Source: Ecdyonurus torrentis
Taxonomy: Eukaryota; Arthropoda; Insecta; Ephemeroptera; Heptageniidae
Assembly (NCBI GenBank): GCA_949318235.1
Contig: OX439128.1
Span: 48,106,530 to 48,170,529, forward strand
DNA: 64,000 nucleotides
Reading direction: 5' to 3'
This document shows, one piece after another, positions 124-47,300 of the stretch (the first letter of the stretch is position 1; each line of letters starts with the position of its first letter). Under the pieces are notes generated by a model, which made no database searches, was not told the origin of the DNA, and saw nothing but the letters and a program-made list of their open reading frames with translations. The translations under genes were made by a program, and so were the position numbers.

Positions 124-3100
124 CAGTAACTTGTTGTAAAGTGCCTGTAGTTTATTTTGAGGATTCTCTAATGTACCACAATGAGTACACAACTCAGCAG
201 TTAGCTTGAGAATCTCCAATGTTGTATCTGGTCCATCCTCTGGTTTTGGAAGCTCACCTAACACAGGTAGCACTTCCTCACACATAAATGCCACAAAGCG
301 AGTGGACTCTACCTTAGACTGAAACATTAGACGTACAAATAAATAAATAGTATTATGATGTATCAAGAGAATGATAGAGGGCAACTTACAGAAAAATAAG
401 GTAGAGCATGACGAGTACAAGCAATCAATCTGTCTACATTCTCTGGCTCTGGAGTTCCAAAAGGTTGGTCAAGTTCTGCTTGTTCTGCAACTAGGTTAAC
501 TAATTCTGTATGGCCAGAGATAGAACTACCAAGACGAGTTTCTCCCAACACAGACATCAACAAACGAAACTCGTCTGCTGTTACATCCTATACACAGAAA
601 CACACATATTTTTATTATCTTGAAATTAAAATATTATATATTTATTAATGTCTTACCTGGAGTACTTTTTTAGTCTCAGCAATGACAAGATCTTCTGCAT
701 CTTTTGAAATAATCTCTGAACCTAGCAGTTTGTACTTATTAGCAAGAAACTTGATGGAACGATCTCTCACAATATCTTCTCCGGTCAGAATTTGGTTGAA
801 TAATCCAGCCAATGTACCTGTGTATATTTTTTTTTATTAGGCCTATGTATTAAAAAAAAAAAAAACTACATACAGACACATTGAATTGAAAATTTAATCA
901 ATTTAATGAAACATGAAAATTCTCCCAAGTTGTAAATAGGACATAACTAGATAAAATGTATAGATAGATAATTAGATGTAAATAGCAAACAGATTATATA
1001 GATAGAAAGGTTAGCCCTATGATAATAGCATTCAGAGCTCTGAGCCTCCAAAGAAGAATTCTCCTTAGATATGCATTAAAGTTCATAGCTGCGCGATAGC
1101 GGACGAAGCATGATTGGCGGTCACAGCTTTGTTTATATCGCATCGTCAAATCAGGGCCGCTGAGCTCAGGCGTAGCTTTAGCATGGCAGAAAGCGCACTC
1201 AAATTCTAAGACTTAGCACAAAGACCGCAGCGAACGCTACCCTAGCCTCTCTTTATAAAATAACTCTATGGTAAATACTGTAGATGCTGTAATATATATA
1301 TATATATTTTTTTTTAAGCAGAGATTTATTTTTAAATTCTATAATTTGATTAGATCAAATAGATTTCTGGTAACAGGGCAAATTTATCTCATAGAACTTC
1401 ATAGAACTCATAGTTACATCCCACATTTTCTCAGATATGACAAAGCTATTTGATCTCATTGATTTTATAGTAAAAATAAAAAATCTTGGTGCATCTACAT
1501 TAGAAAATTGATCTCTCGTTCCATTATTTATTTATAAATTAGAGAATTTTACATTCATTACATTTTCAATCTAGCATGCTCTAATCTTTGCACATACTAT
1601 ATTTATTAATTTTTAATTATCATATATAAAAAAAAAATTGTACAGTAATGGACTAATAAAGGAACAACTGTTTTGAGGCCGACTACAAGCGATTTCGCTC
1701 ACATCCGCTTCTGTTTCTACTTACTACGCATGCACAGTATGTCGAAACGACAGTGGATGTGACCAAAATTGCTTATAAATGGCCTCAAAACAGTTGTTCC
1801 TTTATTAGTCAATATAATATACACTTATACAATAAAATTTTGAAGGTTACTAAAATGCAGCATTAACTCAAAGTAAACATTGGAATCTTACCTCTTGCTT
1901 CATGCTTGAACAATGACATTAAAGCATTGTAGACAATGCTGAGTTCTCCTGAGTCATCAACTTGAAGCAGCTGAGCCAAAATATCAGCAATCTTTTTTGT
2001 GAACTCTTTATTTTCACGACAGAAATTGGGTAAGTCACGGACAGCTTGCTTACGAATCTACAAAAATGGGAAAGAAAAAAATCCATATTATTTACAAAAA
2101 TAATAAAATGTACCGGTAACTGTGCATAAAAATATTTAACTTTTTAATATCTAATCATTTTATATTCATTTATAATATAAACTTGCAGTCCTTTTTTTTC
2201 TTTTTTTTTTTTTTTTTTTCTTTTCTTTTTTATATATATATAGGCTTATATATATATTATAAAATATCACCAACATTTATCAACTAGAAACATAATTACT
2301 ACTGTACATATTTCTGTCATATAAAGTAATGTCATGATATGTACTGGCACAATCATACAAGCAATGTATTATGCTTTTTGTTATAATTTTTATTTTATAC
2401 AGCATCAGTTATAAAAGTATGATAAAGACTTACCAAAATATCTTCATCTTCACAGAGGTCAAACTGGCTCTCAATAGAACGATCAATTAGATTGGGGAAG
2501 TGCTTGAAGAATCTTGGAATAAACTGTGATGCAAGACGTTTTTCTCTGTCGGAGCCCTTCACAGCTTCCAACAAGCTTACATATTCTTCTTCATACTAGA
2601 AAAATAGGTTTCATTAGAGATGCAATTACGTATGTATAAATTGTAAACTCAGAGTAGAAGAAGAGGAAGCATTGCACTTCAGAAACACCATGCACACAAA
2701 ATGTCAACGTTTTAATGGTACGAAAGGGGTGAGGGTAGATATTAATTTAATCATGTCTTTATACCTGAGAATAAAATAAACTTGATTGACCACAATGAAT
2801 TACCTAGTACCGTATATGTTCAATCATTCCTTTAAAACCATACAGAGACTATATTTTATGTATATTTGGGTGGGGGAGGGGTTAGAGGAGGAGAATGATG
2901 AAAATACTTAGGGAAGATGTTCAAAAACGAATTAAGACACACTACACCCCTATTCAGCTAACTGAACCATGGGCCAACTTTCAACTACCTCTTGAACTCA
3001 GGTAAGGCCCTACCTTCTACAATGTTAAGTGAGTCAGCATCTATAATTATGCCAGCTTTACCTTTTCCTTATGTACATATGGATTGGGTAACCCTAATAT

Positions 3101-4707: not shown

Positions 4708-7700
4708 ATGGAAGATAGTGATATTTTACTTGTAAACGCGGGCACACCGGAGGAAGTTTCCAAAACTCTGCAAGACTACACCGAAAAAGTAGGCGTGTAT
4801 TTTTTTTATCATAATAATTTTTTCATTTAAATATGTATATTGTATTACATATTATGTATGTATGTATAAAATGTGCTTTATATACATATATTTGTAAGCT
4901 TTTTTTTTTTTTTTAATTTTTTATTATTAAAGTTCATTTGTCATTTTCTTGATAAAAAGGTGTTGTAATAAAATGTCATTGACTCGATGTTTTTACGTTT
5001 CAGTTCAACCAAACCTTCGTTTTTGTTGATTTGAACAAAGGAGATAAACGAAGACGTTTTTGGGAAGCAATTTTCAAAAGGTTGAATGACCCATGTTATT
5101 CCACTTGCCATTTGACATGTCTTTGCACCATCCGATTGCTCAGGTAATTATGCTGCTACAGAATATAGTTAGTGTGTTATATTCACCCAGAGTCCCCTCC
5201 ACCTTAAGAGTCCCCTCTGTATTCACCTATTCATATTATCATGCATATATCTACTGTTTTTTTGTGAAATTAACAATGCACACATTTGTCATTTTTTGTT
5301 TCAGTCGTGACAAAACAGGCCTAGATGAATTGGTGCAAGAGGACTGGATTGATACGTTATTACACCTGAGTGGATTGTTTCCACGGGAAGCTTCAGAGAT
5401 AAATTTGCCATCACCAAATTACGAAGGTAGCTGACCAGTTCCCTTATAGGGTTCAAAGACAACATTTTTTTTTTTTTATATTTTGCAATTTTTTACTTAT
5501 GAATGAATTCTCAAATATCTGTAATCCATAAAGCCTAGCACAGCAGTCCTTTCTAAGCGATTTTCTTAGCGCAGCGATAAAGTTTGGACCATGCTAACTT
5601 TATAGACGCTATCACAGGGGTGGGATAAGAATTGTGCTAAGAAACGACCGCTGTCGTGCGCTTTAGTGACAGAATTATTGAAATTTAGCAAATTAATATT
5701 TTAATTGATAAGCCATAGACCGCATAAAACCACATGTGCTTTTTAATGAATAAACACAAAATGGGATCTTCAAAACTGATAACAATTTTTACCAGAATGT
5801 TAATGTAGCCCCACGAGAGAGCGTGAAAAAACTGTAAAGTATGCAATTTGTGTGAAAATTCATGTTTATGACGTCACAAACATGCAAAAATTAGTATGAA
5901 AATGATATGCGGGTTGCATAAATCGAATTTTCTAATCTCTGCTACGTGGCTACTCTTGGGTTTTGAGACAAACTAAAGTCATTTATGTAAATCCCATCTA
6001 GTGTTTTGTGATATAAATGCTTATGTTTTTCTCCGGTCTATTCCTATATACTTTCTTTATTGTCATTTGTCATCTATAATTGCTTCTGTTAATTTTATCT
6101 TTATAAATAGTATTTTGGTCTTTTGTTTCAGTTATGGCAGAGTCTCAAAAATGCATGAGTAATCTACTATTTAATAGTTCCGTTGTTCAGGCTTTTTGTA
6201 GTAAAAATTTCTGTGTGGAAAGTATACTCTTAAGATTAAGAACGTATAAAGATCCGGAAATACCACATTCTATCAAATACTATGATATGAAAATTCTGTT
6301 TCTCTTAACTGCATTCTGTTCAGAATTAAGGTGAGACTTTTTAAGATATATAAACAAATTTAATTCAGTATACACTTTAATTTTTTTAACATTGATATTT
6401 CTATATAATGTTTCTAATACAGACCCAGACTGAAAGAAGAGCTTCATGGATTGACATATCTTATGGAGACTCTAGCTTTGATCCTGAAGCAAGCAGCTGG
6501 CATCACAGAAGAAGAAGCTGAGCCTACAACACCTGGTCATGGCATTCTCACTCTCACTGTAAGCTTTCATTTGTCACGTCTCTATTTTTTTGAAGAACAG
6601 GGTCTAATATTAATTTATTTTTAGGCTGATCAACACAGCTTGATATGTGAAATATTGAAAGTTGTTTTTAACTTGACTGTGGGTGCTGAACAAGAGCCAG
6701 ATGAGGAGGAAGAAGCTCATTTCTTACGTTTAGTTCCACTATTACGTCAACTGCTTGTATGTCACTCGGAAGCTCCAGTAGCTAAAGATGAGCTGCAAAG
6801 GTATGCATTTGTTATTAAATTTGTATTATAAGATAAATTAAGGAAATTAAAGCATCATGGTTGGATAACTTTGATAAAATGAAATGAAAAGGACAGAGGA
6901 AACCAGCAAAGGCCTTATCATAATGAAACAATGTCCTTTATTTCAGTGATGAAGAAAACAAAATACGTAACCAAACTGTAAAGTATCATTCACATGGAGT
7001 GAAAATACAGCGTCCGTCAACGGATATTGACGGTTACTCGAATTTGTGTAAAAAATTCACATTACTGCGCATGCGTGGGAAAACTGACGGAAACTGACGG
7101 ATTGAGCTGCCCTAATATAAACATATCGCCCCTTTCACATGCGTTATTGTTGATGGATACTGATGGATGGAGCTGCGCTTATGTAAACAAATGCAACCGT
7201 TCACATGCATCCGTCAGTACCTGTCATTTTGAAGGATAGCGACAGGTAGAAAAATTGGGTGTTGCTAGCTTTGCCTGTCAGTATCCGTCAGTTTTAAAAC
7301 CATGTGAAAGTTTTTTTTTTTTTTTCATTATGTAAACAAGTTGCAACAATACTTTTCAACTTTGTTTATCCGTCAACGAACGTTAAATTTACGCGTCATG
7401 TGAATGATACTTAAGGCATGTCTTCCCAATGTTAAAGCCCTTGCTGTTTTCCTGTTAATGTTGATTTCCTTTTAATTTTATCAAAACTGAATGATACATT
7501 TTACAATTGATTTCTTTAAAATGTTTAAAAAAATTTTTTCCTATTTTAGCCACACTATCAATTTACTTATGACCATACCAGGTAAATGTTACGCTGACTT
7601 AATGCCACCAGTCTCCTCGCCTGAACAAACCCAGTTTGAAGGACGGGAAATGCAAGCTCTTGATGAACTCATAAAATTTCTTCATAGGAGACTTCAAGAA

Positions 7701-10700
7701 GGAAACCCTGTAAGTAATCCTAAATATTATTAACCTTTAAATTAATTTCTAAAATTTACAAATGTAATTTTGAAAGATTTTTGCTAGTGCCAGAAATACT
7801 GTACACACTTTTTTTTATGCAGTCCCCCCCCCCCCTTATAATTTTGGCATTAGAAAGACTTTTTATAATTAGTAATAATAATAATATGCGTATTAGGAAA
7901 AAACCATCGCGGTTAGTATTAATTTAAGTTTAAAAAAAAAATATTTAGAAAATAGTTGGTATAGATTAGAGCACGTTGAATTGAAAATTAATAAAACGCA
8001 AAAATTCTCTAATTTAAATAGTAAATTGGGACTAGGGATCAAATATTCTAGCTTGAGCTAGTTAAATAGTAGACGTTAAAGGGATGGATGTATAGTGTCA
8101 AAATAAAATACGATGTGCCTAGCATCTCACGTTCTCACACTACATCAAAGACACAACATTATAAAACAGCATCAGACTTACTCTTTGCCTTAGACCGGTT
8201 TCGTCCTTTACCTAGGACTCATCAGTAAGGCTCGGCAGAGAGCTCTGTACAGCTAGAGATGGCTCACACCACATCTGCTAACTGACTGAGCTGAGGAAGC
8301 AAGTGGCAGTCGCGTTTTTATACGCGATGCCCCCGCAGCTGCACGCGCTGATTGGTTAAAATCGCGCGCGCAAACTCGGCTTGCTGTTTGCGCGCGCGAT
8401 TTTAACCAATCAGCGCGTGCAGCTGCGGGGGCATCGCGTATAAAAACGCGACTGCCACTTGCTTCCTCAGCTCAGTCAGTTAGCAGATGTGGTGTGAGCT
8501 ATCTCTAGCTGTACAGAGCTCTCTGCCGAGCCTTACTGATGAGTCCTAGGTAAAGGGCGAAACCGGTCTAAGGCAAAGAGTAAGTCTGATGCTGTTTTAT
8601 AATGTTGTGTCTTTGACGTAGTGTGAGAACGTGAGATGCTAGGCACATCGTATTTTATTTTGACACTATACATCCATCCCTTTAACGTCTACTATTTAAC
8701 TCGCTCAAGCTAGAATATTTGATCCCTAGTCCCAATTTACTATTTAAATTAGAGAATTTTCGCGTTTTATTAATTTTCAATTCAACGTGCTCTAATCTCT
8801 ACCAACTATTTTCTAAATATTTTTTTTTAACTTAAATTAATAATACTAATATAGTAAAAATCACAGTGTGATGGCTGATGCGATAGAAAAATGGATAGAT
8901 TATGATTTCAGAGTGTACAAATACATCCCACTCCTTAATCTTCCATTCCCCAATTTGTCATATCTATTTATGAGATAGATATGAGATAGATATCTAGATA
9001 TGAGATGTGAAAAAAAAAATGTGGTGTAGTGGTTAGCGTGCTCGTTTGGCACGATGGAGGTTCAGCGTTTGTTACCAAGCCGGGTTGGCCTTGAAAGGCC
9101 AGCTTGTAAGAGCGGTGGTTAGAACGGTGAAGTTTCAGTGTGTTTCAATGAGTACGTTTCCGCTGCAATGCGTGGGTTGACCAGGCAGTTTGACCACCTC
9201 TCATCCATAGTGGCGGGTGCTGCCGTCGTAAGATTTTGTAGTCCGAGCTGCACAGGTCTGGAATTAGGAGCCCAGAGGAGTGTGGTATTAAGGGTAGAGC
9301 CTGTGGTCTGGTAAGCCACAGATCATTGTAAGCCCTCTTACTAGAAAGGATTCGTCCTGGCCTACCCCGAAAGGGATTATGGCGTCATGATATGTATGTA
9401 TGTGTATGTATAAAAATTGTATTCCTATACATTTATTTGTTATTTCTACTTTTTTTTTTTTTTTTTTTTTATTTATTTTTTTTATTTTTTTTTTTTTTAG
9501 GATGCTGTAGCAAATGCACAGATTGGCCTGGAACGTCTCTGCCCAGTTCTAACTGTACTAGCTCAGGGTTCACTAGTTCAGCGTCCAATGAGAAAGCATT
9601 TACGATGCAATGTTTTGCCACCTTTACGTGATGTTCATCATCGTCCAGAGGAAGGTTCAGAACTTCGAAACTCATTATGTCGTCTTCTCACGTCACCTGT
9701 CACTCAAGTCCGCGATCTGGCTGCAGATTTTCTCTTCATTCTTTGCAAAGAGAGTGGTAAGAACTTTTAAATTTCAGTTAAAGTGTGGTCAGTAATTTGC
9801 ACTTTAGTTAGTTTCTATCTAAGTTAATAATAACTCCCTCCCCCCTAATTTGATTATCATTACAATTTTTATTTCAAACTTTTCTTTTGACTTACAGTGG
9901 CTCGTATGGTAAAGTACACTGGATATGGAAATTGTGCTGGTCTTCTAGCAAACAGAGGACTCATGCTTGGAGGGCGTGGCAATAAAGGGCATTACTCATC
10001 AGAAAGTGAAGACAGTGACACAGAAGAATACAAGCAAAATCGAGCCCAGTATGTGCATTTTATTATTACTTAATCAATTTAACTTATAGGCATAGAACAC
10101 CTGAACAAAAAAGTTGTGTAATATCCTAACAAACCTGAAAATCAACGTTGATTTGTCCAGAGTTATTGATTTCTAATTTATTTTCTATTCACAAAATGGC
10201 ACGAGTGGTCAATAACGTCACAGTTCGCCTGGTCCACTCGCGCGTAAAACAAGCGAGCTGTGACGTCAAGGACCGCTCACGCCATTTTGTGAATGGAAAA
10301 TAAATTAGAAATCAATGACTCCGGCCAAATCAACATTGATTTTCAGGTTTGTTAGGATATTACACAACTTTTTTGTTCAAGGTGTTCTACGCCTTTATTA
10401 TGTCCAATTATCATTTTCAACGTATTTGTAAATTTTTAGTTTCTATTAACTGTAGGCCTAATCAAAACTCTATATTTACATTCTTTCTCCAGGATCAATC
10501 CCATCATTGGATGTTTTGAAGCTCCTCGTCCAAATCCAATGGAAAATATGTCAGAAGAACAACAAGAGTATGAAGCAATGAAGCTAGTTAAAATGATGGA
10601 TAAACTAACAAGGTATCTAAAGTATAAACTATAGACTAAAACTAAAAGGATAAGGTAGAGGAAACCAGCAATGATATTCCCATACCATCTTGCAAGCACT

Positions 10701-11764
10701 GAGCTAATATACACATTGATAGTTTTGGTACACTACTTTTAGAGAAATGGAGTATGTGTGCTATTTCACAGTTTCTCTCGATGTATGAAAAGGTTTACAA
10801 AGGAGGCAACACACATAGAGTGTTTCTTTAGGAGTGTTTTGCCAAAAGCTATCAATGTGTTTATTATCTCTGCTAGCAATTAACATTTTCTTTGAACATC
10901 TTTCCACTTTAGTATGCAGGGTCGGCCTGGGATTAAAAGGCCCGGTCCGCGCGATTAGAAAAGGGCCCGCGAATGGTGGGACCGAGGCCCCCCAAAACAG
11001 CGCCGCAGGCAAAAAAAAATTTGAGGCCACGCCCCCTTTTCAGTCGGAATTTACTTAAAATACTTACAATTTTTTATGAGATTTTTATGCAAGCAAACTA
11101 CAAGTAAAATTATTATACTGTTTTTAAATGAGCTAATGAGGAAGGTGAATTTTTTTTAACCCCAACTTTTTATGACATTTTTGAAAAGAGCGTTAAAAAA
11201 TTTTGAGGCGCTATTTTTTCTTAGAACGATTAGAGCATGGGAAGTATTTTTAATTAATTTTTGAAAATCGACCTAAAAAGACTGTGACGTCATCAATCGG
11301 GCATTTATTTCGGAAAGTATTGACCGTAGAAGCCTCAGAGTAGCCAGTTTTTTGAAATCCTGAGGACGAGCTGATTTCATTAAACTGGTTACTGAACCTC
11401 GAATGATTAGTATTTGCCGAGAAAAAAGTTGATTGATGACGTCACAGGCTTTTTAGGCCGATTTTCAAAAATTAATTAAAAATACTTCGCATGCTCCAAT
11501 CGGTCGTCCTAAGAAAAATAGGGCCTCAAAAGTTTTTAAAGCTCTTTCCAAAAATATCATAAACTCAACAAAAAATTTTCAATTCACCTTCCTCATTGAC
11601 CGCACTAGAGTTCACTAGGGGTGCGATTTTTTTAAAAATTAAAAGCGGATAGAATTTTAGGATTGAATGTAATTTCTTGGCGTCTTTTGAAAGAAAAAGA
11701 AAATTTATCAGTCTGAAATTGTCCTTTTATTTATTTCTTTTTCTTCTTCTTCTTCTTCTTCTTC

Positions 11765-11805
<41 letters not shown>

Positions 11806-13377
11806 CTTTGTTTGTTTGTTTTTCTTTTTCTTTTTAATTGGTGTGTTGTAGGCAAGGCAAGGGCCCGCGCCCGGGGGGGCCCGGTCCGCAATCGCAGACT
11901 AGCGGACCTGGCCAGGCCGACCCTGTTAGTATGACTCTTGTTGGTTTTTCAATAGTAAAGAAAAGGATAGAATAACCAGCAAGGGCCTTACCACAGTAGA
12001 AGTTCTATGGAGAGGTCGAAGTTTCGCATGGCACAGTGTTTTGTTATAAAAAAGTTCATTTTATAACTGAGAGCTTTCGTCATATATTAATGACATTATC
12101 AATCAAAGAAGAAAATTACTTGAGCACATCCATGCCATTGTACTCAAGACAAGACACTGCTTAGTGATGTGCTCAAGTAATTTTCTTCTTTGATTGATAA
12201 TGTCATTAATATATGACGAAAGCTCTCAGTTATAAAATGAACTTTTTTATAACAAAACACTGTGCCATGCGAGACTTCGACCTCTCCATAGAACTTCTAC
12301 TGTGGTAAGGCCCTTGCTGGTGATTCTATCCTTTTCTTTAATATTGATCCTAACCGCAATGTTTTTTTCCTTAAATTGATCTTGTTGGTTTTTTCAATTT
12401 TTGCCTTTTAATTTCATCATATCTAACCGAGATCGTTTTTTTTTTTATTATTATTATTTTTTTTTTTAAACTATAGGCCTATCAATTACTTTTATATTTG
12501 TATTATCAAGGAAAGAATAGCATGATGGAGTCTGTAGCTAGTTGAAAATATTTTACATTGCTAATTTTGTTAATGTAAATACATATATCGATGCTTCCAC
12601 GTCAAAAGAGAGCATCTGTACTTTCCACCAGCATGGCGAGTGGAGTATCTGCACTTTACACACAGCACGGTGTGTGGACTAGCAGCCATTTACTTAACAT
12701 TACAGATGCTCCACGGTGGAAAGTGCAGATACTCCACTCGCCGCTCTGGTGGAAAGTGCAGATTCTCTCTTTAGACGCGGAAGCATCGATATGTGTAAAC
12801 TGTACCATCAAGATCTTAAACTAGCTTTGAACTTCATTAAGGGAAGGCACTTTATGGTTTCCCTATTTTTTTGTTTGATAATACATTCAATCCAAAACGG
12901 GTTTTATTTTCAAAATTACTTTTATATAATATGGTTGTTTTTTTTTGGTCACCCTCTCTGTCATCCTTTCGTTTTGGGGTCTCTCAACTCGCACCATCTA
13001 TTTGTGTGGTTTAGAAATTCTGTGGCCAAATTTGCCACACCTTTACGACCTCATAAAAGTTTGTTTCAAGTTGATAGACCTACCCTACTAGGATGTGAAC
13101 AATGAGCCCCAAATGAGAGTGCAGAAATGTCACCACACATACGTTGAACCTTGACATTCACAGTGCTAAAATATTCTTCTAATAAGGGGGTGACCCAATA
13201 TCATAGTAGATAAAGAATAGAAGGGGCTCTAAAGAGAAAGTCTTATTTTTTAGGGGAGGTGTTGTACAGCCTTGCAGAATTGGAGAAGATGGTAGACCTG
13301 AACCTGTTCAGCATGTTTTACAACTGCAGGAAGAACTAAATAGACAACAACATGGGGACAACTCAGACTCGGACTAA
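4708..13377 (+). CDS. RIC8A: RIC8 / synembryn, G-alpha chaperone and guanine nucleotide exchange factor
   Basis: Eleven exons: 4708-4788, 5004-5143, 5305-5426, 6132-6330, 6423-6558, 6625-6800, 7550-7709, 9501-9756, 9898-10048, 10493-10612, 13254-13377, giving 554 aa and stop TAA. The frame is kept throughout. Matches to RIC8A run along the chain: [94 protein letters not shown]8 folds nascent G-alpha subunits and acts as a cytosolic GEF on GDP-bound G-alpha; it is an all-helical ARM/HEAT-type protein. The acidic stretch [14 protein letters not shown] corresponds to the CK2-phosphorylated region that boosts activity. Length is close to the vertebrate 530 aa. Introns 7 and 10 carry most of the ribozyme elements described here. 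RIC8A versus RIC8B is not resolved for a single invertebrate gene. Confidence 0.96.
5534..5668. repeat. Imperfect inverted repeat in RIC8 intron 3
   Basis: Left word TAGCACAGCAGTCCTTTCT and right word AGAAACGACCGCTGTCGTGC are imperfect inverted partners, and TTCTTAGC / GCTAAGAA and GCGATAAAG / CTTTATAGACGC pair inside. A foldback remnant of unknown family. Confidence 0.5.
6836..7488 (-). mobile_element. Palindromic element of the hammerhead-tail family, interrupted by a MITE
   Basis: The arms (left from 6867, right ending 7488) are inverted partners carrying ACCAGCAAAGGCC / GCCCTTGCTG and TTTGATAAAATGAAATG / TTTTAATTTTATCAAA. The left arm continues into a tail that reads, on the minus strand, CCAACCATGATGCTTTAATT then TCCTTAAT, matching the 3' tails of 7888-8837 and 11954-12380. 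A separate MITE (6979-7415) replaces the centre, so a ribozyme cannot be assessed. No duplication was found. RIC8 intron 6. Confidence 0.55.
6979..7415. mobile_element. ~437 bp nested MITE with GTATCATTCACATG ends
   Basis: Terminal inverted repeats AAGTATCATTCACATG and CATGTGAATGATACTT. Inside, the word CCGTCAGTATCCGTCAG and relatives (TGACGGA / TCCGTCA) recur in both orientations, giving a strongly folding interior. It is inserted in the centre of the palindrome 6836-7488. Confidence 0.75.
8181..8240 (-). ncRNA. Type I hammerhead ribozyme, left arm of P1 (canonical)
   Basis: On the minus strand: stem I 5' strand GCCUUA (8231-8226), core CUGAUGA (8225-8219), stem II GUCC (8218-8215) / GGAC (8206-8203) with an 8 nt loop, GAAA (8202-8199), minimal stem III CC/GG closed by A-U, cleavage triplet GUC ending at 8193, then UAAGGC (8192-8187), which pairs with stem I. 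An outer CUCU/AGAG helix (8240-8237 with 8184-8181) extends stem I past an internal loop. All core nucleotides are conserved. The stem III sequence ACCGGU is self-complementary, the hallmark of animal hammerheads that cleave best as dimers. Confidence 0.92.
8285..8322 (-). promoter_or_regulatory. Outward TATA/initiator pair in left arm of P1
   Basis: TATAAAA on the minus strand (8322-8316), with CTCAG and TCAGT initiator-like words about 28-35 nt downstream, then the ribozyme about 50 nt further. Exact mirror of the right-arm promoter. Confidence 0.5.
8439..8476 (+). promoter_or_regulatory. Outward TATA/initiator pair in right arm of P1
   Basis: TATAAAA 8439-8445 followed by CTCAG (A at 8469, 30 nt downstream) and TCAGT 8472-8476, the arthropod initiator word. 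Spacing fits a pol II core promoter. Transcripts would contain the hammerhead about 60 nt from the start. Confidence 0.5.
8521..8580 (+). ncRNA. Type I hammerhead ribozyme, right arm of P1
   Basis: Plus-strand copy: CUCU 8521-8524, stem I GCCUUA 8530-8535, CUGAUGA 8536-8542, stem II GUCC 8543-8546 / GGGC 8555-8558 (one U-G wobble instead of the left arm's U-A), GAAA 8559-8562, CC/GG 8563-8566, U8567, predicted cleavage after C8568, UAAGGC 8569-8574, AGAG 8577-8580. Core intact. It points away from its partner, so transcription outward from the centre in either direction makes a ribozyme. Confidence 0.92.
9016..9410 (+). mobile_element. tRNA-derived SINE
   Basis: Has a pol III A box TGGTGTAGTGG (9022-9032) and a B-box-like GGTTCAGCG (9059-9067) at tRNA spacing (GTGGTGTAGTGGTTAGCGTG head), followed by a ~300 bp unrelated GC-richer body and a TATG-repeat tail. 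Non-coding. RIC8 intron 7, just upstream of exon 8. Confidence 0.75.
10089..10393. mobile_element. 305 bp foldback with CRE-like palindromes (copy 1)
   Basis: Ends GGCATAGAACACCT and AGGTGTTCTACGCC; the long arms share TTGTGTAATATCCTAACA and ATTTCTAATTTATTTTC with few mismatches. The centre carries GTGACGTCA and AACGTCAC, cAMP-response-element-like words, around a loop. A second copy is at 54328-54641. RIC8 intron 9. Confidence 0.8.
10917..11925. mobile_element. Non-autonomous hAT element (1009 bp)
   Basis: Ends CAGGGTCGGCCTGG and CCAGGCCGACCCTG, flanked by an exact 8 bp duplication TTAGTATG (10909-10916 and 11926-11933). The 8 bp duplication and the CAGGG end are diagnostic of hAT. Subterminal GGCCCGGTCCGC words occur at both ends. 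No transposase. It carries the nested foldback 11135-11599 and a long poly-T, and is itself inserted in older repeat DNA of RIC8 intron 10. Confidence 0.9.
11135..11599. mobile_element. ~465 bp foldback nested in the hAT element (copy 1)
   Basis: Ends AATGAGGAAGGTGAATT and AATTCACCTTCCTCATT. The arms share GAAGTATTTTTAATTAATTT and CTGTGACGTCATCAATC. A second, similarly sized copy is at 25173-25637, so this is a mobile family and not chance. Confidence 0.8.
11954..12380 (+). mobile_element. Palindromic ribozyme retroelement P3
   Basis: Arms 11954-12130 and 12166-12342 are nearly perfect inverted copies around a 35 nt spacer (centre 12148). The right arm continues 38 nt (12343-12380) into the tail CCTAACCGCAATGTTTTTTT then CCTTAAATTGAT. 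Flanked by CTTGTTGGTTTTTCAAT (11937-11953) and CTTGTTGGTTTTTTCAAT (12381-12398), a 17/18 bp duplication differing by one T in a run. A hammerhead remnant sits in each arm. Plus orientation by its tail. It is inserted only 3 nt after the hAT duplication. RIC8 intron 10. Confidence 0.82.
12190..12229 (+). ncRNA. Degenerate hammerhead ribozyme in P3 (right arm; mirror at 12067-12106)
   Basis: Stem I UUGA 12190-12193, core-like UUGAUAAU 12194-12201, stem II GUCAU 12202-12206 / AUGAC 12213-12217, GAAA 12218-12221, stem III AGCU, triplet CUC ending 12225, then UCAG 12226-12229 pairing with stem I. Against CUGAUGA the core has a U-A in place of the C3-G8 pair and an extra U, so activity is doubtful. 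The layout matches P1. The mirror copy is on the minus strand. Confidence 0.6.
12581..12797. mobile_element. ~215 bp inverted-repeat MITE ending ATATCGATGCTTCC
   Basis: Ends CATATATCGATGCTTCC and GGAAGCATCGATATGTG. Inside, the module with AAGTGCAGATACTCCACTCG and relatives repeats in both orientations. The ends resemble the modular family at 34770-35001 and 48323-48622 (ATATCGATG). RIC8 intron 10. Confidence 0.7.
12945..13195. mobile_element. MITE ending GGGTGACCCAAT (copy 2)
   Basis: Left end GGTCACCC, right end GGGGGTGACCCAAT. Homologous over most of its length to the reverse complement of 3079-3341. Ends about 60 bp before RIC8 exon 11. Confidence 0.65.
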
Positions 13378-14348: not shown

Positions 14349-17300
14349 TCAAACGAGTGCTTGAGGGGGTGCTGGTTGTTCAAATTCTCCCAGCTCTTCA
14401 TCGTAATAAGCACCAGCACGGAATGGTCTAAGTTCCCAAGGTACCTGATCTTCCATTGCAGTCAAATTAACTCCAAGATCTTCAAGAGTTCGTACACCAG
14501 GGGTCAAGACATCAGAAACATGCTCCTATAAGTAAATAACAAAATTATTTGTTATAAATGTGTTAAAAAAAAAAAAAAAAAAAAAAAAAATCTGAATTTA
14601 CACGTAAAGTAATGATTTTATTTCTTAAGAGGCCGATTTACTCTCTATACGCTGCCTGCTTGCTGCCCATTCAAATCAATGTAATCGTAATTCCATGATT
14701 TCTCCGCAACTAATACACCTAGAGATACCAAATTTTTAACACATCTTTACAAAGATGTTATCTAGACCTTCACTGAAGCCGATTTTTGATATCTTTTTTT
14801 GTTCTGTTTTTAAATGATTAAAATGTTGCTATTGAGTTCATAAAAAAAAATCTTCAGTGAATGCCTTTGTTTTTTTATTAGCTTTCCATCGGTGTAAAAA
14901 ACATTTCAATCCGATGCTTAATTAATTGTATATATTGGAATTACGATGTTATATTTATGTTATATTTATTTTACAAGTAAATGCGCCACTGTGGACAGTC
15001 AAAGAATTACGTTCTGTTTTGCTTTTAGTCGAGTATATTTTCTCAATATTTTCTATCATTTCGATACTTTTATTATTGCTTTGAAAGTGTATGAAGGTCA
15101 GCTTCGTAAACTCCCAAAACAGCGGATTTTATGTAAAATACTATCTCGTCTGATATCAGAGTATAAAATAGTTTATAGGTGAATGAGAAAAAAGTTACTA
15201 TATTTTATAATATATGAGTTGCTGCGGCTATAGGCATAATCAAGCTAACATTCAATAATCCGTAATCGGGACCTTATTAAATTATTATAAATATGTCATG
15301 ATTGCAATAGTTATGGTCAGGTCAAGCATTGCTTCATCGTAAAGAAAATATATTTTAAGTTATTTGCTAATTAGAAAACCAATTAAAAGTAAAAAAAAAA
15401 AAAAAAAAAAATTGAGTGTTGCAAAGAAAAACAATTTATCTAAAGGATCAAGATGGTGGTAACTACAGGTTTATTAATCAATTGCACTAACATATTATAA
15501 TAATTAAATTAGTCATAAAAAAAAGTGGAAAAAAATTCACACAATATTTTTAGATTTACGTGCAACAAATAAATAATAAAATAATTATAAATAGTATGTA
15601 CAATATTATAATAAAACAACAATTTGGAAGAAAATAAATTGACATTGAACTCCGAATTGTGATCGGCTCACTCTATCTGCAAATTTGGATACAATATCAC
15701 ATCTTTATTTTAATGAAAATATATATTTATATGCTTGCAAATAATTTATATAATATCCAACCTTTCTGATGAAATGTCACATTTTGGATATCAACGGCAA
15801 TTTATTTTCGTCTCCAAATTTGTGTTTCCGTATTATATAATATTATTGCTTATTATTTAAATTTTGTATTTAGGAAAAGGAAAAGTACCATCGCGGTATG
15901 GACACAAATGTGAAGCTAAAATAGGATAGAGAGGAACCAAATGAGAGTTGACGCCAGGCAGCAGCGTCAACTGAAAATCTCAAATGGGGATAGGTTTATA
16001 AAATTATATATTTTGAGGAAATATATACTATGCCATTATGTCTCATGCCGTTATGCACGGCCCTAAACACGCGTTAGCGTTGTAAGGCGAGAACTTTATG
16101 CATATATTAATTAGGAGATATAGGAATTTGAGTAGGAGGCGGGGGGTTGCAAGCACAGCAATACATTGTACATAAAAAACAAATATAACTCAATAGTTAC
16201 AAACGTTTCGCCCTCCCACAGGCTAATCAGTGTAACGGGAAGAGTAACACAGTCAAGCTAGAGATGATGCTAACACCATGACATCTGCTAGCTGACTGTG
16301 CAGTGGTCTGCGAATTTTCTGGGCTTTTCTGTGGGAGGGCGAAACGTTTGTAACTATTGAGTTATATTTGTTTTTTATGTACAATGTATTGCTGTGCTTG
16401 CAACCCCCCGCCTCCTACTCAAATTCCTATATCTCCTAATTAATATATGCATAAAGTTCTCGCCTTACAACGCTAACGCGTGTTTAGGGCCGTGCATAAC
16501 GGCATGAGACATAATGGCATAGTATATATTTCCTCAAAATATATAATTTTATAAACCTATCCCCATTTGAGATTTTCAGTTGACGCTGCTGCCTGGCGTC
16601 AACTCTCATTTGGTTCCTCTCTATCCTATTTTAGCTTCACATTTGTATTATTTAAATTGTATATTATATCATTTGCACGTAGACTTCTAAAAGATACATA
16701 ATATATATTTTTATTGTAATATATGCATTATCATATTTTGAAGTAGCAAATTGCATATTTCTATGTGATTTTTTCTTTCTATGATATTATACAAAAAATA
16801 AATGCGTTATTATAAATTTTTTTGCTGTCTTTAGATTCAATATTGTATGTAAAAATACTCTCTTCGTTCTTTGCAAGGCTCTAGCTAGAATTGAAACCTG
16901 TTATTAATGCCTTACATACCAATCTATTGTATTCGTTTCCTGTGATTATTGGTCACTTTGATGACGTATGACCACTCGATTTCAGTCATTTAAGTTTCCT
17001 GCCTTATCTTAGATTTTGATCTTTTAGACAGTTTGTTTACATTTATATTTTCCAGAGAGTAAAACGGCCTCTTAAGTTTTAAAAATTTACCAAAAATATC
17101 AACAATATTATTGTCTTATGTATTACTGCAGTTACCCCCCCCCCCCTTTTTTTTTTTTTTTTCTTCTTCTTCTTTTTCCTTAAGAATGAGTAGGTATATA
17201 ACTTGTGTGTGCAATACATAGATCGGAAAACAGTCAAATAATAATAATGAAAGTCATATGACGATAGAAAGAAAGGATAGGATGGGAGAAAACAAGCAAA

Positions 17301-18994
17301 GGCCGCCTTACCATAAGTGAATAAAGTCCCATCTTTCATAGTTTCTCTCCGAGTTACTAAAGACTGACAAAGGCATAAAACACTTTTTCTCTTGAATTTA
17401 AGTGCCAAAAGATATCCAGTAGTGTGAGAACGTGAGATGCTAGGCACATCGTATTTTATTTTGACACTATACCTCCATCCCTTTAACGTCTACTTTTTAA
17501 CTAGCTCAAGCTAGAATATTTGATCCCTAGTCCCAATTTACTATTTAAATTAGAGAATTTTTGCGTTTTATTAATTTTCAATTCAACGTGCTCTAATCAC
17601 TACCAACTATTTTCTAAATATTTTTTTAAACTTATTAATACTAACCGGGATGGTTTTTTCCTAATACGCAAAAGATATCCAACGTTTTTTTTTTTTTTTT
17701 TTTTTTTTTTATATATATCTCTGTGCTAGCAAGATTTACGCCAAACTACTGCTCTCTCTTCACTATGATAAGGCCCTTGCTGGTATTCTCCTTTATATCT
17801 TTGTCTTTCAAATTCATTGTACTTAACTGCCTATAATTTATGTTCCTTACTACTCCTTTCATTATTTATTAAACACTAAACATTACTTGTTTTCAATTAT
17901 TCATTAAACAAAAAATGTACTTACTCGCTCCACTCTCTCCATGCACAGATAACCAATTGGGAATCCAGGAGAAATTTTCTCAGTAACAGCTACCTTGATC
18001 TTGAATAATGGATCCCAGCGCATATCATAACGCCAGTAACCCCACTTGTCATCCTTGCGCATCACACGATGGAACCAATCAACAAGTTCACTCAGCTGGT
18101 ATCTCTTGGGGCTGCAAAACAAGTTGTAATATTTAGTGATGTATTATTAATATATAAATATATAGATCTACTCACCCAACGGCTTGGTAAACATTGCCTG
18201 CAGATTCTGGATCTCTGATTGCATTGACAATGGCAGTAGCCACGTCACTGACAAACACTGGCTGCTTGACGGTACGCTCTCCCTTGTACCACAGAGGCAT
18301 GAAGCGGAACTGTCGCCTCCAAATGTGAGCATAATACCTATAACACACAATGCAGACAATAATTAAATGTGCTTTACAGGAAAAGTAATATAATAACTTT
18401 TTTTTTTAATGCAGTCCCATTCATATTTATGATGGTAAAAATGTAAATGAATGATATCAATCTTGTAGCGAAAAAAATGTCTATCTCATATTTTGTCAGT
18501 GGAAGCAAAAGGTCTATCTCGAGCGCCATCTCCATAACGTTCGGGAACGAGATAGGCCTTTTGCTTCCGCTGACAAAAAACAAGATAGGCCTTTTGCTTC
18601 TCCTGACAAAATACGAGATAGACCTTTTTATCGCAACAAGATCGATATAAAATGCTGTATTACTAATTTTACAAGTGCTAACAAGTGTTAACAAGTGGAG
18701 TCATAACATCTCCAGAACCCTGCTTACAGGGCATGCTTTAAAATTATTTAACCCAACCTTTCTCTTTAAGTTACTTATAAATAATAATAGCATTGTTTTA
18801 CCTCAGCCATTGATATCAATGTTGTAGCTAACAATATGTGTATCTTGTTTTTGCCATTGGAAGCAAAATGTGCAGTATTTTTTTGTCATAGTAAGCAATA
18901 TGTGTTAGTTGGGCGCCATCTACATTACGTTCGGAAACGACTTACACATTTTGCTTACACTGACAAAAAAGGACTACATATTTTGCTTACCATG

Positions 18995-23600: not shown

Positions 23601-23840
23601 CACACAGTAGTCCATACACAGTACATCCACAGTATATTATACAGTAGTCCATCTCCTATAGCGGGAATGTCAGATCGAATGCGCGCCATAATTCCGACTG
23701 GGTGAAGTTGTCAGAACTACACGTAACATTACTTCAAATTACGGCTTCTAGTTCTGCCACCTTCACCCAGTCGGAATTATGGCGCGCATTCGATCTGACA
23801 TTCCCGCTATAGGAGATGGACTACTGTATAATATACTGTG
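23601..23840. mobile_element. Foldback element with perfect 80 bp arms and 9 bp duplication (Mutator-like?)
   Basis: Arms 23628-23707 and 23761-23840 appear identical as inverted copies (inner ends GGGTGAAG / CTTCACCC). AAACCACAT occurs at 23592-23600 and 23841-23849, a 9 bp direct repeat as made by Mutator-like transposases. The left end has an extra 27 bp with a partial direct repeat (CAGTAGTCCAT). Perfect arms point to a young insertion. Confidence 0.8.
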
Positions 23841-24717: not shown

Positions 24718-40081
<15,364 letters not shown>

Positions 40082-40586: not shown

Positions 40587-42128
40587 ATGAAGTCTTCAGT
40601 TGAAAAATCTCAAAAAATCAATAGTCAGACACAGTCACAACACTCTCAACGATCTGCTCGAAAATGTCTTTCTTTGAAAAAGATTGCGGCTGATAAAAAA
40701 TGTAATAAATTTCCTAGTGCTATTGATAGTGTAAAAAATCAAACAGCAGAAAATGTCAATAATAATCCTACCAATTCAGTTAAAGTTAATTATTTAGATG
40801 ATACTTGTTTTGACGAGTCTGATTTTCAGGCAATAGATGAATTGATATTAAGTGGTAACATACTTGATAATACACAACTTTTATCATCTCAGAATATTGA
40901 AACATGTGATGTTGATTTGAACCCAATGAAGAAGCAAAGAAAATCTATAGATCATGATTCTGGAATAGCAGAAATATCCATGGGATCACCAACTATTTTA
41001 GATTCCAGTATGATGTCTCCGACTCCTGTCCCTCAAGTAACTCAAATTAAAAGTACAGAAGATACAAGCCAAATAACATCAGATATAAAATCAGTTTTAA
41101 TGTCTAATGCTGAAGCTCCTTCAGCATTAATTTCAAACAAACAAAGGTCAAAAGTTTTGGAAAAAATGATGGATATGAATGAAACTGCTATCATGAACGA
41201 ATCTCTCAATCTTGATGATTCTATGTTAAACTCGAGTATTATTAAATCAAATGACAAATCTTTCTATGGATTACCTGCTCAAGTTAGACAACTTGTCCAT
41301 GACTTCAAGGGAATTGAAGATTTGTACTGTACGTTACAACAACTTGGAATGGTCTACGGTGCGCACCACCTCGAGTGGGTACACAGGTCCGTGACGAATG
41401 CTTTCAATGTATCTGGTCCTCGTAAACACCACTTTATGGTAATTTAACACAGTGGTGCACACTGTATACCAGATGCATGGAAAGAATTCATCACAGACCT
41501 GTATTCAACAATGTGGTGCGCACTGTAGACCATTCCCAACAATTTGAAATCCACTGCAACTAAGCAATAATAACAATAAAAACTTACTTTATTCTTTTCT
41601 TATTTTGTTACAGCATGGCAAAAAGAGTGCTTAAATCTGGAAGCTGTGACACAAAAGAAAAATCTCATCTATTCCTTACCAACAAGTGGTGGGAAAACAC
41701 TAGTAGCAGAAATTCTAATATTAAGAGAAATTCTTTGTCAAAAAAAGAATGCTATCTTTATCTTCCCATATGTTTCTATTGTTCAGGAAAAGGTGTGCTA
41801 ACAAAATAATTTCAATGTAATTTTTAAGTTACCTATTTCTATTCTGTAGCATCAAACTAATTAAAATTTGACATGGTACTGGATCAATATAATGAATATC
41901 GAGGGCTACGCGGAATTTCGGTACTTGTGCAATCTCCGCGGGTGTAATTTTGGCACATGTCCAATCTACGCCACGCCTACTAATGGCACATCTGTATAAG
42001 CTAAGCGTATAAAGATGTTTCAAAAATGGTGAGCGCGGAGAATGCACATGTGCCAAAAATGCACCCGCGGAGATTGCACTAGTACCAAAATGCCGCGTGG
42101 CCCTCGATATGTAAATGACTTTTTCTTC

Positions 42129-44358: not shown

Positions 44359-47300
44359 CCCAGATTGGTTTAGGTCAGACAAACACACCAGGTGAAATCA
44401 AACTAATGATTCAAGGTTCACTTCTAAAAGTACAAGCTGAGAAATTAAATTTTGAATTAAATGGAATTGTAGATGCAATCATCACACTGCTCATGGAGTC
44501 CGAGGTAAAAATTCATTAGTTATTTTATGAGTTGAGAAGTTTATAACTCCTTGAGGAGGAAAAAAAGTAATGAAAATATATTTTAGGTATTATCAGAAAA
44601 TACAAAACCAGTGTCATCAACTACAGAAGCAACTACTAAAGATAGTGTTGTATCTCATAACATAGGAACCATCATAGATTCTACCAAATTGTGTATAAGT
44701 AATCTTGGTAAAGCAGCAATGAAAGGTTTGTACAATACATAGGCCTATTATATTTAAAAAAAAAAAAAAAAAAAAAATTATACCATATTGAAGAATGTGC
44801 TATAGTTTGGTGAAATCTTGCTAGAACACATAAGTGCTTTTTGGCACAACACTCGAAGCTAAGTGGAGTTTAAAATACGTGTACCTTTGTTACAGAGTAG
44901 GCTCACTAGGGTGTTGTGACGTCACATGAATCCTTTTGCCCATAAGGTTAACATTGCGTTTTCTGGAACAAGTGACGTCACAGCTGCTAGTGAGCCCCCC
45001 CCCCCCCCCCCCCCCCCCCCCGCCTTTGTTAGCCTTTTCAGATTTAACAAGTTTATAAACTATAAAACTATGATTTGTAGTTTCTCTCCAAGTTTTTAAA
45101 GACTGACAAAGATCTACACACTCACATACTTCGTTTCTGTCAAAGTACTGTGTAAAACACTACCAATGTGCTAGCTAGATTTTCACCGAACTGTAAGACA
45201 TCTTTCACTATGATACGTCTCCTGCTGTTTACCTCTATCCTTCCCTTTTAATTTTGTCATGTCCAACCATGGTAGTTTATTTTACTTAATTAATCTTGCA
45301 ATTAATTTTTACTACTTTATTTTGCATCACCTCATGATTATAAATAATTTTGTTTTCAGGAAACATGTCAATTTCTGGGGCCAAGTCATTGCAGAAAGAT
45401 TTAAAAGAAGCACAGAAATCACTTAATCTTCTTACTCCTCTTCATTTACTTTACCTTGTAATTCCTTATGATTCCTTCATGTCTCTATCCTACTCTCCAA
45501 TGATGTTTGCATCTGCAGTAAGTATTTAATCCATTAATAGCAACAACTATCTCTCTGGGCTCACAAGCGGTTGTGACCTCACTTGAATAGTTAAGTTAAC
45601 AATAATGTTAATGTCAGTAATAATTAAATTTATAATAGAAAATGGTAGAGAAACATTAGAGCATGTTGAATTGCAAATTAATAAAACGCAAAGATTTTCT
45701 AATTTATTGAGTCTTGGGATCAAATGTTCTGGTGCAATATATCAGCTGCAATGTTTTCCCCCCTCATTTTTATATTAATTTCCCTAAGCAAAGCTATTAG
45801 CGTGATTTTACTTTCACCTTGTGAGCCGATATTTATTATACTAGGGTATCTTGGACAGGGTTTGAAAAAACCCGGGTTTTTTCGAAAAAACCCACTGGGT
45901 ATGGGTTTTTTCGGGATTTTTCGATAAAACCCTGAAAAAAACCGGGTTTTTTGGGTTTTATCAGGGTTTTTTCAAAAAAAGGTGGGTTTAATCATTTTTT
46001 TTTATTTGAGTCTGTAAAAAATATTTATCATAAAATATACAAATGCTGGAAATATTTTTTAACAAAGATATTTTAAACTAAAATAACCATATATAACTTT
46101 TTTTTTGTCAATTTATTTTAATAAATAATAATACTCTGACCAACAAACTAAAATATCTGTCACTTTGATTGACAATACCCTGAAAAAGAAATAGAGTAGA
46201 GGAGGCTAGACAAAATATAATGTATAATTAGGTGTATATCATCTCACTCAAGCAGGTAGGACCCGTTTTGCTTGCCAGCCATGGTTTTTAACAATAAGTT
46301 AACCTTTGATACCCGTCACATTAAAAAAGTATAGTTTCGCGCGGTGTCAATAGCCATCAATAATTAAAGACTCAATTATTGCAGAAACGTATTATTATGA
46401 TTAAAAGTTGAAAACGTGTCATTCTTAAATTAAATCCTGCAATGCAAATTTTGCAAACCATGAAAAAAAAAAAAGTGTTGTCTCTCTTTGTTTTGCAACC
46501 ATGGCTGCACGTTAAATCTAAATTTATGTACCTGCACTTAAGGACTTGGTCAGAGTATTATTATTATTATTTGGTTGAGATATATTTATAAATAAAAGAC
46601 TGATTTATGATGAGGTCTTGGGATTTGAGGTATCTGTTGACCTTCACCATTATTTAAATTATAAATTAATTAATGAACTGATGATCAGCCAGACATTTAA
46701 AAACTCTACACAATCAATGTACTGTTTAAAAAGTAAATATAATGATTCCATATAAAAAAGTATGCATTGTAAGCAAAGTTAAAAAATTAAATAAACTATC
46801 TTTCTTTGCATTTTAGTCATTTTTTAAGAAGTGGGTTTTTTCGTGGGTTTTTTCGGGATTTTTCAAGGTTTTTTCGGGTTGGGCAAAATAGTCAAAACCC
46901 TGATCTTGGACAACAGTTAGGTCCTTCCATTAGCTTCAAATTTTATTGCACATTCTAAAAGAGCGTTATTTATTGTTATTGGCAGATAATTATTGTTTTC
47001 ACTTGGCTCAAAAAAAAAAAAAAAAAAAAAAAAAATAGTACATAAATAAAAATATTAATGACTGAACAAACTCTTTTAGAGAATGCTTATTATATGGAAC
47101 TAATAATGTATTTTTACTTACAATATGTTATTTTCTTAATTATTTCAGTACCAGAATCTTATCAATGATGATAAGTTCACTGTAAAACTACTAGGAGTTA
47201 CAGAGGGAATGGTAGTTAACATGATGACCGGTGGAAATCCAAGGGTAAGTTAATATCCATATCATTTAACACAAATTTATATTGTGATGTAAATCAAAAG

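Follow-up and report, generated by a model that had tools for sequence, protein, structure and literature searches.

The DNA analyzed here (the window) is a stretch of 64,000 nucleotides of the mayfly Ecdyonurus torrentis (contig OX439128.1, positions 48,106,530 to 48,170,529 of the forward strand), and its main feature is a palindromic element at 7888-8837, called P1 below. P1 consists of two head-to-head arms, and its longest stop-to-stop frame has 72 codons. Two further palindromes with a related 3′ tail (P2 and P3) and a truncated solo copy of the P1 arm (C17) were found in the window, to which all statements on copies refer. P1 was interpreted as an element derived from a Penelope-like element (PLE), lacking an open reading frame (ORF) and mobilized in trans, and we give this reading a probability of about 0.77.

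The inverted repeat of P1 is formed by arms at 7933-8375 and 8386-8828 (443 nt each, 99% complementary, 10 nt apart). A gapped alignment gave 98.05% identity over 462 columns, with seven mismatches and two gap columns; one of the seven lies in the flanking target duplication, and the arms themselves differ by six mismatches and a 2-nt gap. The left arm (7888-8385, including the 10-nt centre at 8376-8385) has its sense on the minus strand and bears the 3′ tail. The right arm (8386-8837, plus strand) is tail-less and ends 8 nt short of the ACCG position. Each outermost base directly adjoins a target duplication, TAATAATAATAATAT at 7873-7887 on the left and TAATAATACTAATAT at 8838-8852 on the right, which are identical at 14 of 15 positions. 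The outer part of the arm has a GC content of 0.31. Upstream of the hammerhead motif described below, both arms contain a CCAAT and the TATA-like box TATAAAAA (8351-8355 and 8315-8322 on the minus strand of the left arm; 8406-8410 and 8439-8446 on the plus strand of the right arm), and the right arm also contains the Inr-like CTCAGTCAGTT at 8471-8481 (plus strand). These putative promoter elements were located by sequence, and with them outward transcription may be possible from both arms.

Each arm carries a type I hammerhead ribozyme motif directed outward, at 8187-8231 on the left (minus strand) and at 8530-8574 on the right (plus strand). Both were matched by the covariance model RF00163 over its complete length (1-45), with 30.0 and 26.8 bits, respectively. 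They share stem I (GCCUUA/UAAGGC), CUGAUGA, stem II (GUCC/GGAC on the left, GUCC/GGGC on the right) and GAAA; stem III is not closed and consists only of the self-complementary ACCGGU. Two occurrences of the core CTGATGA...CGAAA were counted in the window, where 0.09 would be expected. Both motifs were also found with a descriptor requiring a 6-bp stem I, three or more base pairs in stem II, a core with at most one mismatch, GAAA and UH. It detected three sites in the 64 kb, the third being in P2 with one core mismatch, and 20 sequences simulated with a first-order Markov model had on average 0.15 sites per window. The preliminary description of this DNA had reported a 950-base palindrome between these outer limits, without an ORF and with a hammerhead on each outward-facing arm, all of which was borne out. 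Its remark that the change from GGAC to GGGC in the right arm still pairs is also correct (a U-G pair), and its predicted cleavage points, after 8568 (plus) and 8193 (minus), are the positions that the motifs predicted here as well.

In a scan of the whole window no Rfam family reached its gathering score. The microRNA-like matches, such as MIR851 at 8304-8457 (68.3 bits, gathering score 90), were set aside as a likely product of the long perfect hairpin. The exact P1 hammerhead pattern gave no match in viral_contigs, from which records of the window's own genome are possibly excluded.

The minimum-energy fold predicted for the P1 homodimer is a double hammerhead formed through the intermolecular ACCGGU, with energies of -31.9 kcal/mol (left) and -30.7 kcal/mol (right), the monomers having -14.7 and -14.1 kcal/mol. 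A single transcript of the palindrome contains only one hammerhead in sense orientation, the other being on the opposite strand, and such a dimer would have to form between two transcripts. The newt satellite hammerhead, also of type I, resembles the P1 motifs in its very weak helix III, with which efficient action is expected of a dimer, and has an internally looped helix I, which is possible in P1 too (PMC6155905). Newt units are direct tandems (PMC6155905), whereas the P1 motifs are on opposite strands.

C17 (17419-17669, plus strand) lies about 8.6 kb from P1, is 96.1% identical to its left arm over 257 columns and corresponds to the outer 250 nt of the arm, set between perfect 12-bp direct repeats. 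C17 looks like a 5′-truncated, target-primed insertion, so the P1 arm appears to have a defined 3′ end, ACTAACCGCGATGGTTTTTTCCTAATACGC. Of three readable substitutions between the P1 arms, two have the left-arm base in C17 and one has the right-arm base; this split is no proof of different sources and does not separate the models of formation considered below. Older, diverged relatives of the 3′ part of the arm were found at 45603-45730 (minus strand, 73.7% over 137 columns) and 1501-1630 (plus strand, 72.4% over 134 columns). Direct tandems of the P1 arm were absent from the window, which contained only inverted or solo copies.

The palindrome P2 occupies 15864-16645, with repeat-finder arms at 15904-16221 and 16329-16646 (318 nt, 100% identical) and a 107-nt centre. 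It contains a diverged hammerhead at 16196-16236 (minus strand) with the core CTGATTA, in which G8 is replaced by U, and the stem I GTTACA/TGTAAC. There is only one such motif because the other arm begins within stem II. Compared with P1, both sides of stem I are altered at four of the six pairs and the pairing is preserved; the minimum-energy fold predicted for the P2 motif has both stem I and stem II. P1 and P2 have the leader and hammerhead in common (70% over 105 columns), and also the tail, while their middles of 270 to 295 nt gave no significant match. The palindrome P3 (11953-12380; repeat-finder arms 11949-12130 and 12166-12347 of 182 nt, 98% identical, with a 35-nt centre) has the tail alone in common with P1. 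Diverged stretches similar to the P3 arm at 17705-17849 (66%) and 6835-6920 (69%) suggest that the P3 family is repeated too.

The preliminary description had taken P1 for a non-autonomous ribozyme retroelement fixed as an inverted dimer. This agrees with the truncated arm copy C17 and its 12-bp target duplication, and the two palindromes sharing the tail of P1 are further evidence of mobility. Within the window, P1 does not appear as a unique and immobile palindrome.

P1, P2, P3 and C17 all bear a related 3′ tail, ACCGCGATGGT followed by T-rich sequence. It lies at 7888-7917 in P1 (minus strand, core ACTAACCGCGATGGTTTTTTCCTAATACGC, 34 nt from the point where the tail-less arm ends), at 15866-15901 in P2 (minus strand, CCATACCGCGATGGTACTTTTCC), at 12349-12380 in P3 (plus strand, CCTAACCGCAATGTTTTTTTCC) and at 17640-17669 in C17 (plus strand). 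A 20-position matrix made from the four tails scored them at 27.0 to 30.8 bits, while no other site in the window exceeded 19.4 bits and the maximum in 10 Markov sequences was 19.7; since the four tails are its training set, the scores express likeness among the tails and are not an independent test. When up to two mismatches were allowed, ACCGCGATGGT had 10 matches against 4.06 expected, and 10 was reached in none of 100 shuffles. A hairpin reading of ACCGCGATGGT was rejected, as the tail folds into no single common RNA structure in the three families. The weaker tail-like match at 12422-12441 (19.4 bits) lies 25 nt past the target duplication of P3; P3 may sit in an older copy of the same kind, or the match may be due to chance, its score being within the Markov maxima (up to 19.7).

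The tail was present at one end only in all three tail-bearing palindromes. Their tail-less ends lack 34, 39 and 40 nt and stop 8, 7 and 12 nt before ACCG in P1, P2 and P3, respectively. In P1 and P2 the target duplication is immediately adjacent; in P3 three extra bases lie in between. All four insertions are flanked by direct target duplications, whose lengths range from 12 to 17 bp. Besides that of P1, they lie at 15851-15863 and 16646-16658 for P2 (13/13), at 11937-11952 and 12381-12397 for P3 (13/13, then a one-T indel in a 16-17-bp repeat) and at 17407-17418 and 17670-17681 for C17 (12/12). A random pair of sites matches at 12 or more of 13 positions with a probability of about 7e-5, a value that serves as a guide only because the junctions were picked by eye.

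Two alternative explanations would deprive P1 of its status as a retroelement. Artificial palindromes are known to occur in sequence data, and P1 could in principle be a hairpin chimera produced during assembly or amplification. This origin is scarcely credible: beyond the target duplications the flanks show no continuation of the palindromes, with an inverted identity of 0.33, 0.37 and 0.28 over 60 nt (P1, P2 and P3), direct duplications flank all three, and the P1 arms differ by their six mismatches and 2-nt gap. The long inverted repeats, together with the further palindromes in the window that resemble miniature inverted-repeat transposable elements (MITEs), would suit a fold-back DNA transposon or MITE holding a hammerhead-like sequence by chance. 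Against it stand the unequal ends with a tail on one side only, the target duplications varying from 12 to 17 bp, the 5′-truncated C17, which shares the 3′ end and is flanked by a target duplication of its own, and the covariation of stem I between P1 and P2, and such an origin is very improbable. Both explanations were rejected on this evidence.

Several traits of PLEs recur in these elements. All available PLE sequences are described as carrying hammerheads, usually minimal ones (PMC6155905), and a hammerhead within the pseudo-long terminal repeat (pLTR) is present in both arms of P1 and, with a diverged core, in P2, but not in P3. The peculiarities of PLE copies include inverted pLTRs and short 3′ extensions (PMC8969392), and published PLE tails measure 30-40 bp (PMC11167929); an inverted pLTR pair with such a tail on one member was found in all three tail-bearing palindromes. 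Target-primed insertion, which long interspersed nuclear elements have as well, is indicated by the variable duplications at four of four insertions and by the 5′ truncation of C17. The direct or partial tandem of PLEs (pLTR-ORF-pLTR) was not found in the window. P1 was accordingly filed as PLE-derived and non-autonomous and not as a full PLE. It is described here as a head-to-head inverted pair of pLTRs, each with leader, type I hammerhead and 3′ region, one of them with a PLE tail.

In the rotifer Adineta vaga, head-to-head was the inverted-repeat arrangement most frequently observed for Penelope (PMC3846280), and the view in the preliminary description that the inverted form stands instead of the usual direct tandem is not supported. 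Like P1, these copies (Pen2a_Av and others) have head-to-head inverted pLTRs, one of which may carry a 31-bp tail, the inverted pLTR being 37 bp shorter; the pLTR contains a TATA box, and the targets are AT-rich. Target duplications, where present, have 8 to 10 bp, and some copies lack them (PMC3846280). Unlike P1, which retains just the inverted pair, these copies contain an ORF or captured DNA between their pLTRs, in many cases together with direct pLTRs (PMC3846280). The word "hammerhead" did not occur in a word search of PMC3846280. Another likeness is to the Poseidon PLE of Anolis carolinensis (PAc), in which two adjacent internal start sites of reverse transcription define the tail and the target is AT-rich (PMC11167929). 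The PAc hammerhead has stems I and II (PMC11167929), and in P1 an ATG at 8539-8541 directly precedes stem II and lies 27 nt upstream of the predicted cut. PAc differs in having an ORF and tandem pLTRs (PMC11167929), whereas the frame opened by the ATG of P1 ends after four codons.

The preliminary description had drawn its analogy both to PLEs and to animal retrozymes, and the Penelope half of it fits. Animal retrozymes are small non-LTR elements with circular RNA and a type I hammerhead. One that had inserted as an inverted dimer would share with P1 the type I hammerhead, its small non-autonomous form, its lack of an ORF, a low GC content (0.31 in the outer arm of P1) and target duplications of more than 4 bp (PMC7229834), and a looped stem I is possible in the predicted folds of P1 and P2. 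PLEs are named a strong candidate for moving retrozymes (PMC7229834), which brings the two readings close. However, metazoan retrozymes form direct tandem arrays that give circular RNA (PMC7229834), and no direct tandem copy was found in the window; an inverted dimer cannot free a unit by two cuts in one transcript, and the one-ended tail is a PLE trait (PMC3846280, PMC11167929). Canonical retrozyme hammerheads have loop 1-loop 2 contacts (PMC7229834); the predicted folds of P1 and P2 weigh neither for nor against these. The retrozyme half of the analogy is therefore the weaker one, an inverted retrozyme dimer is improbable and was rejected, and P1, P2 and P3 were read as inverted pLTR pairs of a PLE without ORF.

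The origin of head-to-head inverted PLE copies is left open in the papers cited here. A purified PLE protein cuts and extends both strands of its target, and its reverse transcription begins at two adjacent internal sites, the stretch between them being the genomic tail (PMC11167929). Two-sided target-primed reverse transcription is the simplest account of the palindromes from such demonstrated activities. A PLE protein with reverse transcriptase and GIY-YIG endonuclease, supplied in trans, would recognize the leader/hammerhead and tail modules and cut both strands of one target site. Sense RNA would then be reverse-transcribed from both cut 3′ ends, from one of them starting at the distal site, with the tail included, and from the other at the proximal, tail-less site. 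The two cDNAs would run inward and be joined where their 5′ ends meet, leaving a palindrome between target duplications, and the hammerhead, which in the predicted folds would work best as a dimer of two sense transcripts through ACCGGU, would trim the RNA. Outward 3′ ends, a one-ended tail, a fixed tail-less end, unequal 5′ ends as in P2 and a direct target duplication would all follow from two-sided priming. We regard this step, in which the joining is our own proposal, as quite possible, at a little under even odds.

The main competing account keeps the PLE identity and derives the second arm from self-priming, with a single cDNA folding back near its 5′ end and then being copied. Palindromes at inverted junctions have led to the proposal of self-priming on an antisense template for Penelope of A. 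vaga (PMC3846280), and the P2 arms, 100% identical over 318 nt with a centre contiguous with the tail arm, are in agreement with it. Copying of this kind, however, should pass through the tail into the target, whereas all three tail-less ends halt 7 to 12 nt before ACCG; these ends adjoin a direct target duplication, and an extra block at the tail would be needed. Moreover, under uniform truncation the stops of P2 and P3 would both fall no more than 5 nt from that of P1 with a chance of about 0.0015, as estimated post hoc with assumed arm lengths of about 370 and 220. Random 5′ truncation thus hardly accounts for three ends in one narrow place. The one-ended tail contributes less, as three of three has a chance of 1 in 8 with random start sites and alone is no proof of two sites per event. 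Fold-back was considered possible but not probable.

Several results weigh against a PLE-derived element made by two-sided priming. The RF00163 matches cover the full length of the model, but both scores stay under the gathering score of 34, although the core and stems I and II are present nonetheless. The unforced P1 monomer, as the 45-nt motif or with flanks, folds into structures other than a hammerhead, and with flanks the forced hammerhead has -22.4 against -26.4 kcal/mol for the unforced fold on the left and -21.8 against -25.8 kcal/mol on the right. In the forced folds of P1 and P2, stem I can also be extended past a small internal loop by a 4-bp outer helix (CUCU/AGAG in P1, ACUC/GAGU in P2), as in non-PLE (newt-type) type I motifs; since such a helix has a chance of 0.49 in composition-matched flanks, it carries no weight in deciding between a minimal and a looped stem I. 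The predicted fold of the P2 homodimer is not a canonical double hammerhead. Given its core CUGAUUA, with G8 replaced, and the elimination of cleavage by G8C in a PLE hammerhead (PMC11167929), the P2 hammerhead is probably inactive. P3 is without a hammerhead by the descriptor, and as P3 was recognized through its tail, similar palindromes lacking one would have escaped notice. As to the proteins, no PLE protein gene was seen in the window, where no systematic search was made for one; a Pfam scan of seven of the 18 listed ORFs, which was not a six-frame search, detected domains in four (TMTC, epimerase/3Beta_HSD, TPR and API5), none of them a reverse transcriptase or GIY-YIG domain, and all compatible with an animal source. 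With regard to formation, the part containing CCAAT and TATA would not have been copied from a transcript begun at its own TATA, so that a longer or tandem source transcript has to be supposed. The arm identities of 98, 100 and 98% fit fold-back equally well, and the additional centre of P2 is part of the tail arm, as would be expected from fold-back.

Three palindromes without genes, flanked by target duplications and nearly constant in where the tail-less end stops, constitute a clean natural record of the insertion event, and this record fits priming from both cut strands. Comparison of P1, P2 and P3 isolates two short modules, the leader with the hammerhead and the tail, which may suffice for mobilization in trans. 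In a more far-reaching model, a PLE parasite without genes would propagate as the palindrome itself, produced in one step by two-sided priming, with divergent promoters giving paired sense transcripts for a dimeric hammerhead and unrelated middles being swapped between the constant modules. This combination is speculative and rather unlikely as a whole; if true, DNA placed between the constant leader/ribozyme and tail modules would be mobilized as an inverted pair. Neither inverted pLTR pairs of PLEs with hammerheads but without ORF, nor two-sided priming, were found among the literature matches listed (titles and the beginnings of abstracts) or in the papers cited, which is weak evidence of novelty.

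Additionally, other repeats were detected in a survey of inverted repeats, carried out separately for each half of the window (17 pairs in 1-32000 and 25 of 37 listed in 32001-64000). Five other inverted pairs (10102-10379, 12580-12797, 23628-23840, 34764-35007 and 48332-48613) had no tail match among the matches listed, and they were rejected as PLE-type elements, being MITE-like in appearance. The first is a spacer-less palindrome with 139-nt arms that are 88% complementary. The elements at 12580-12797 and 23628-23840 are inverted repeats with short spacers. The palindromes at 34764-35007 and 48332-48613 resemble each other at their ends (TATCGATCTTGTTGCG and TATCGATGTTATTGCG), have the centre ACGTTAYGTAGATGGCGCTCGA in common and are apparently members of one MITE-like family with internal repeats. 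Further inverted-repeat pairs were listed at 41896-42110 and 54387-54579. By reading only, the stretch 9022-9300 resembles the head of a tRNA-derived short interspersed nuclear element (TGTGGTGTAGTGGTTAGCGTGCTCG...). A second dispersed repeat is present in inverted orientation at 11151-11575 and 25201-25622, about 14 kb apart, in pieces that are 90 to 97% complementary.

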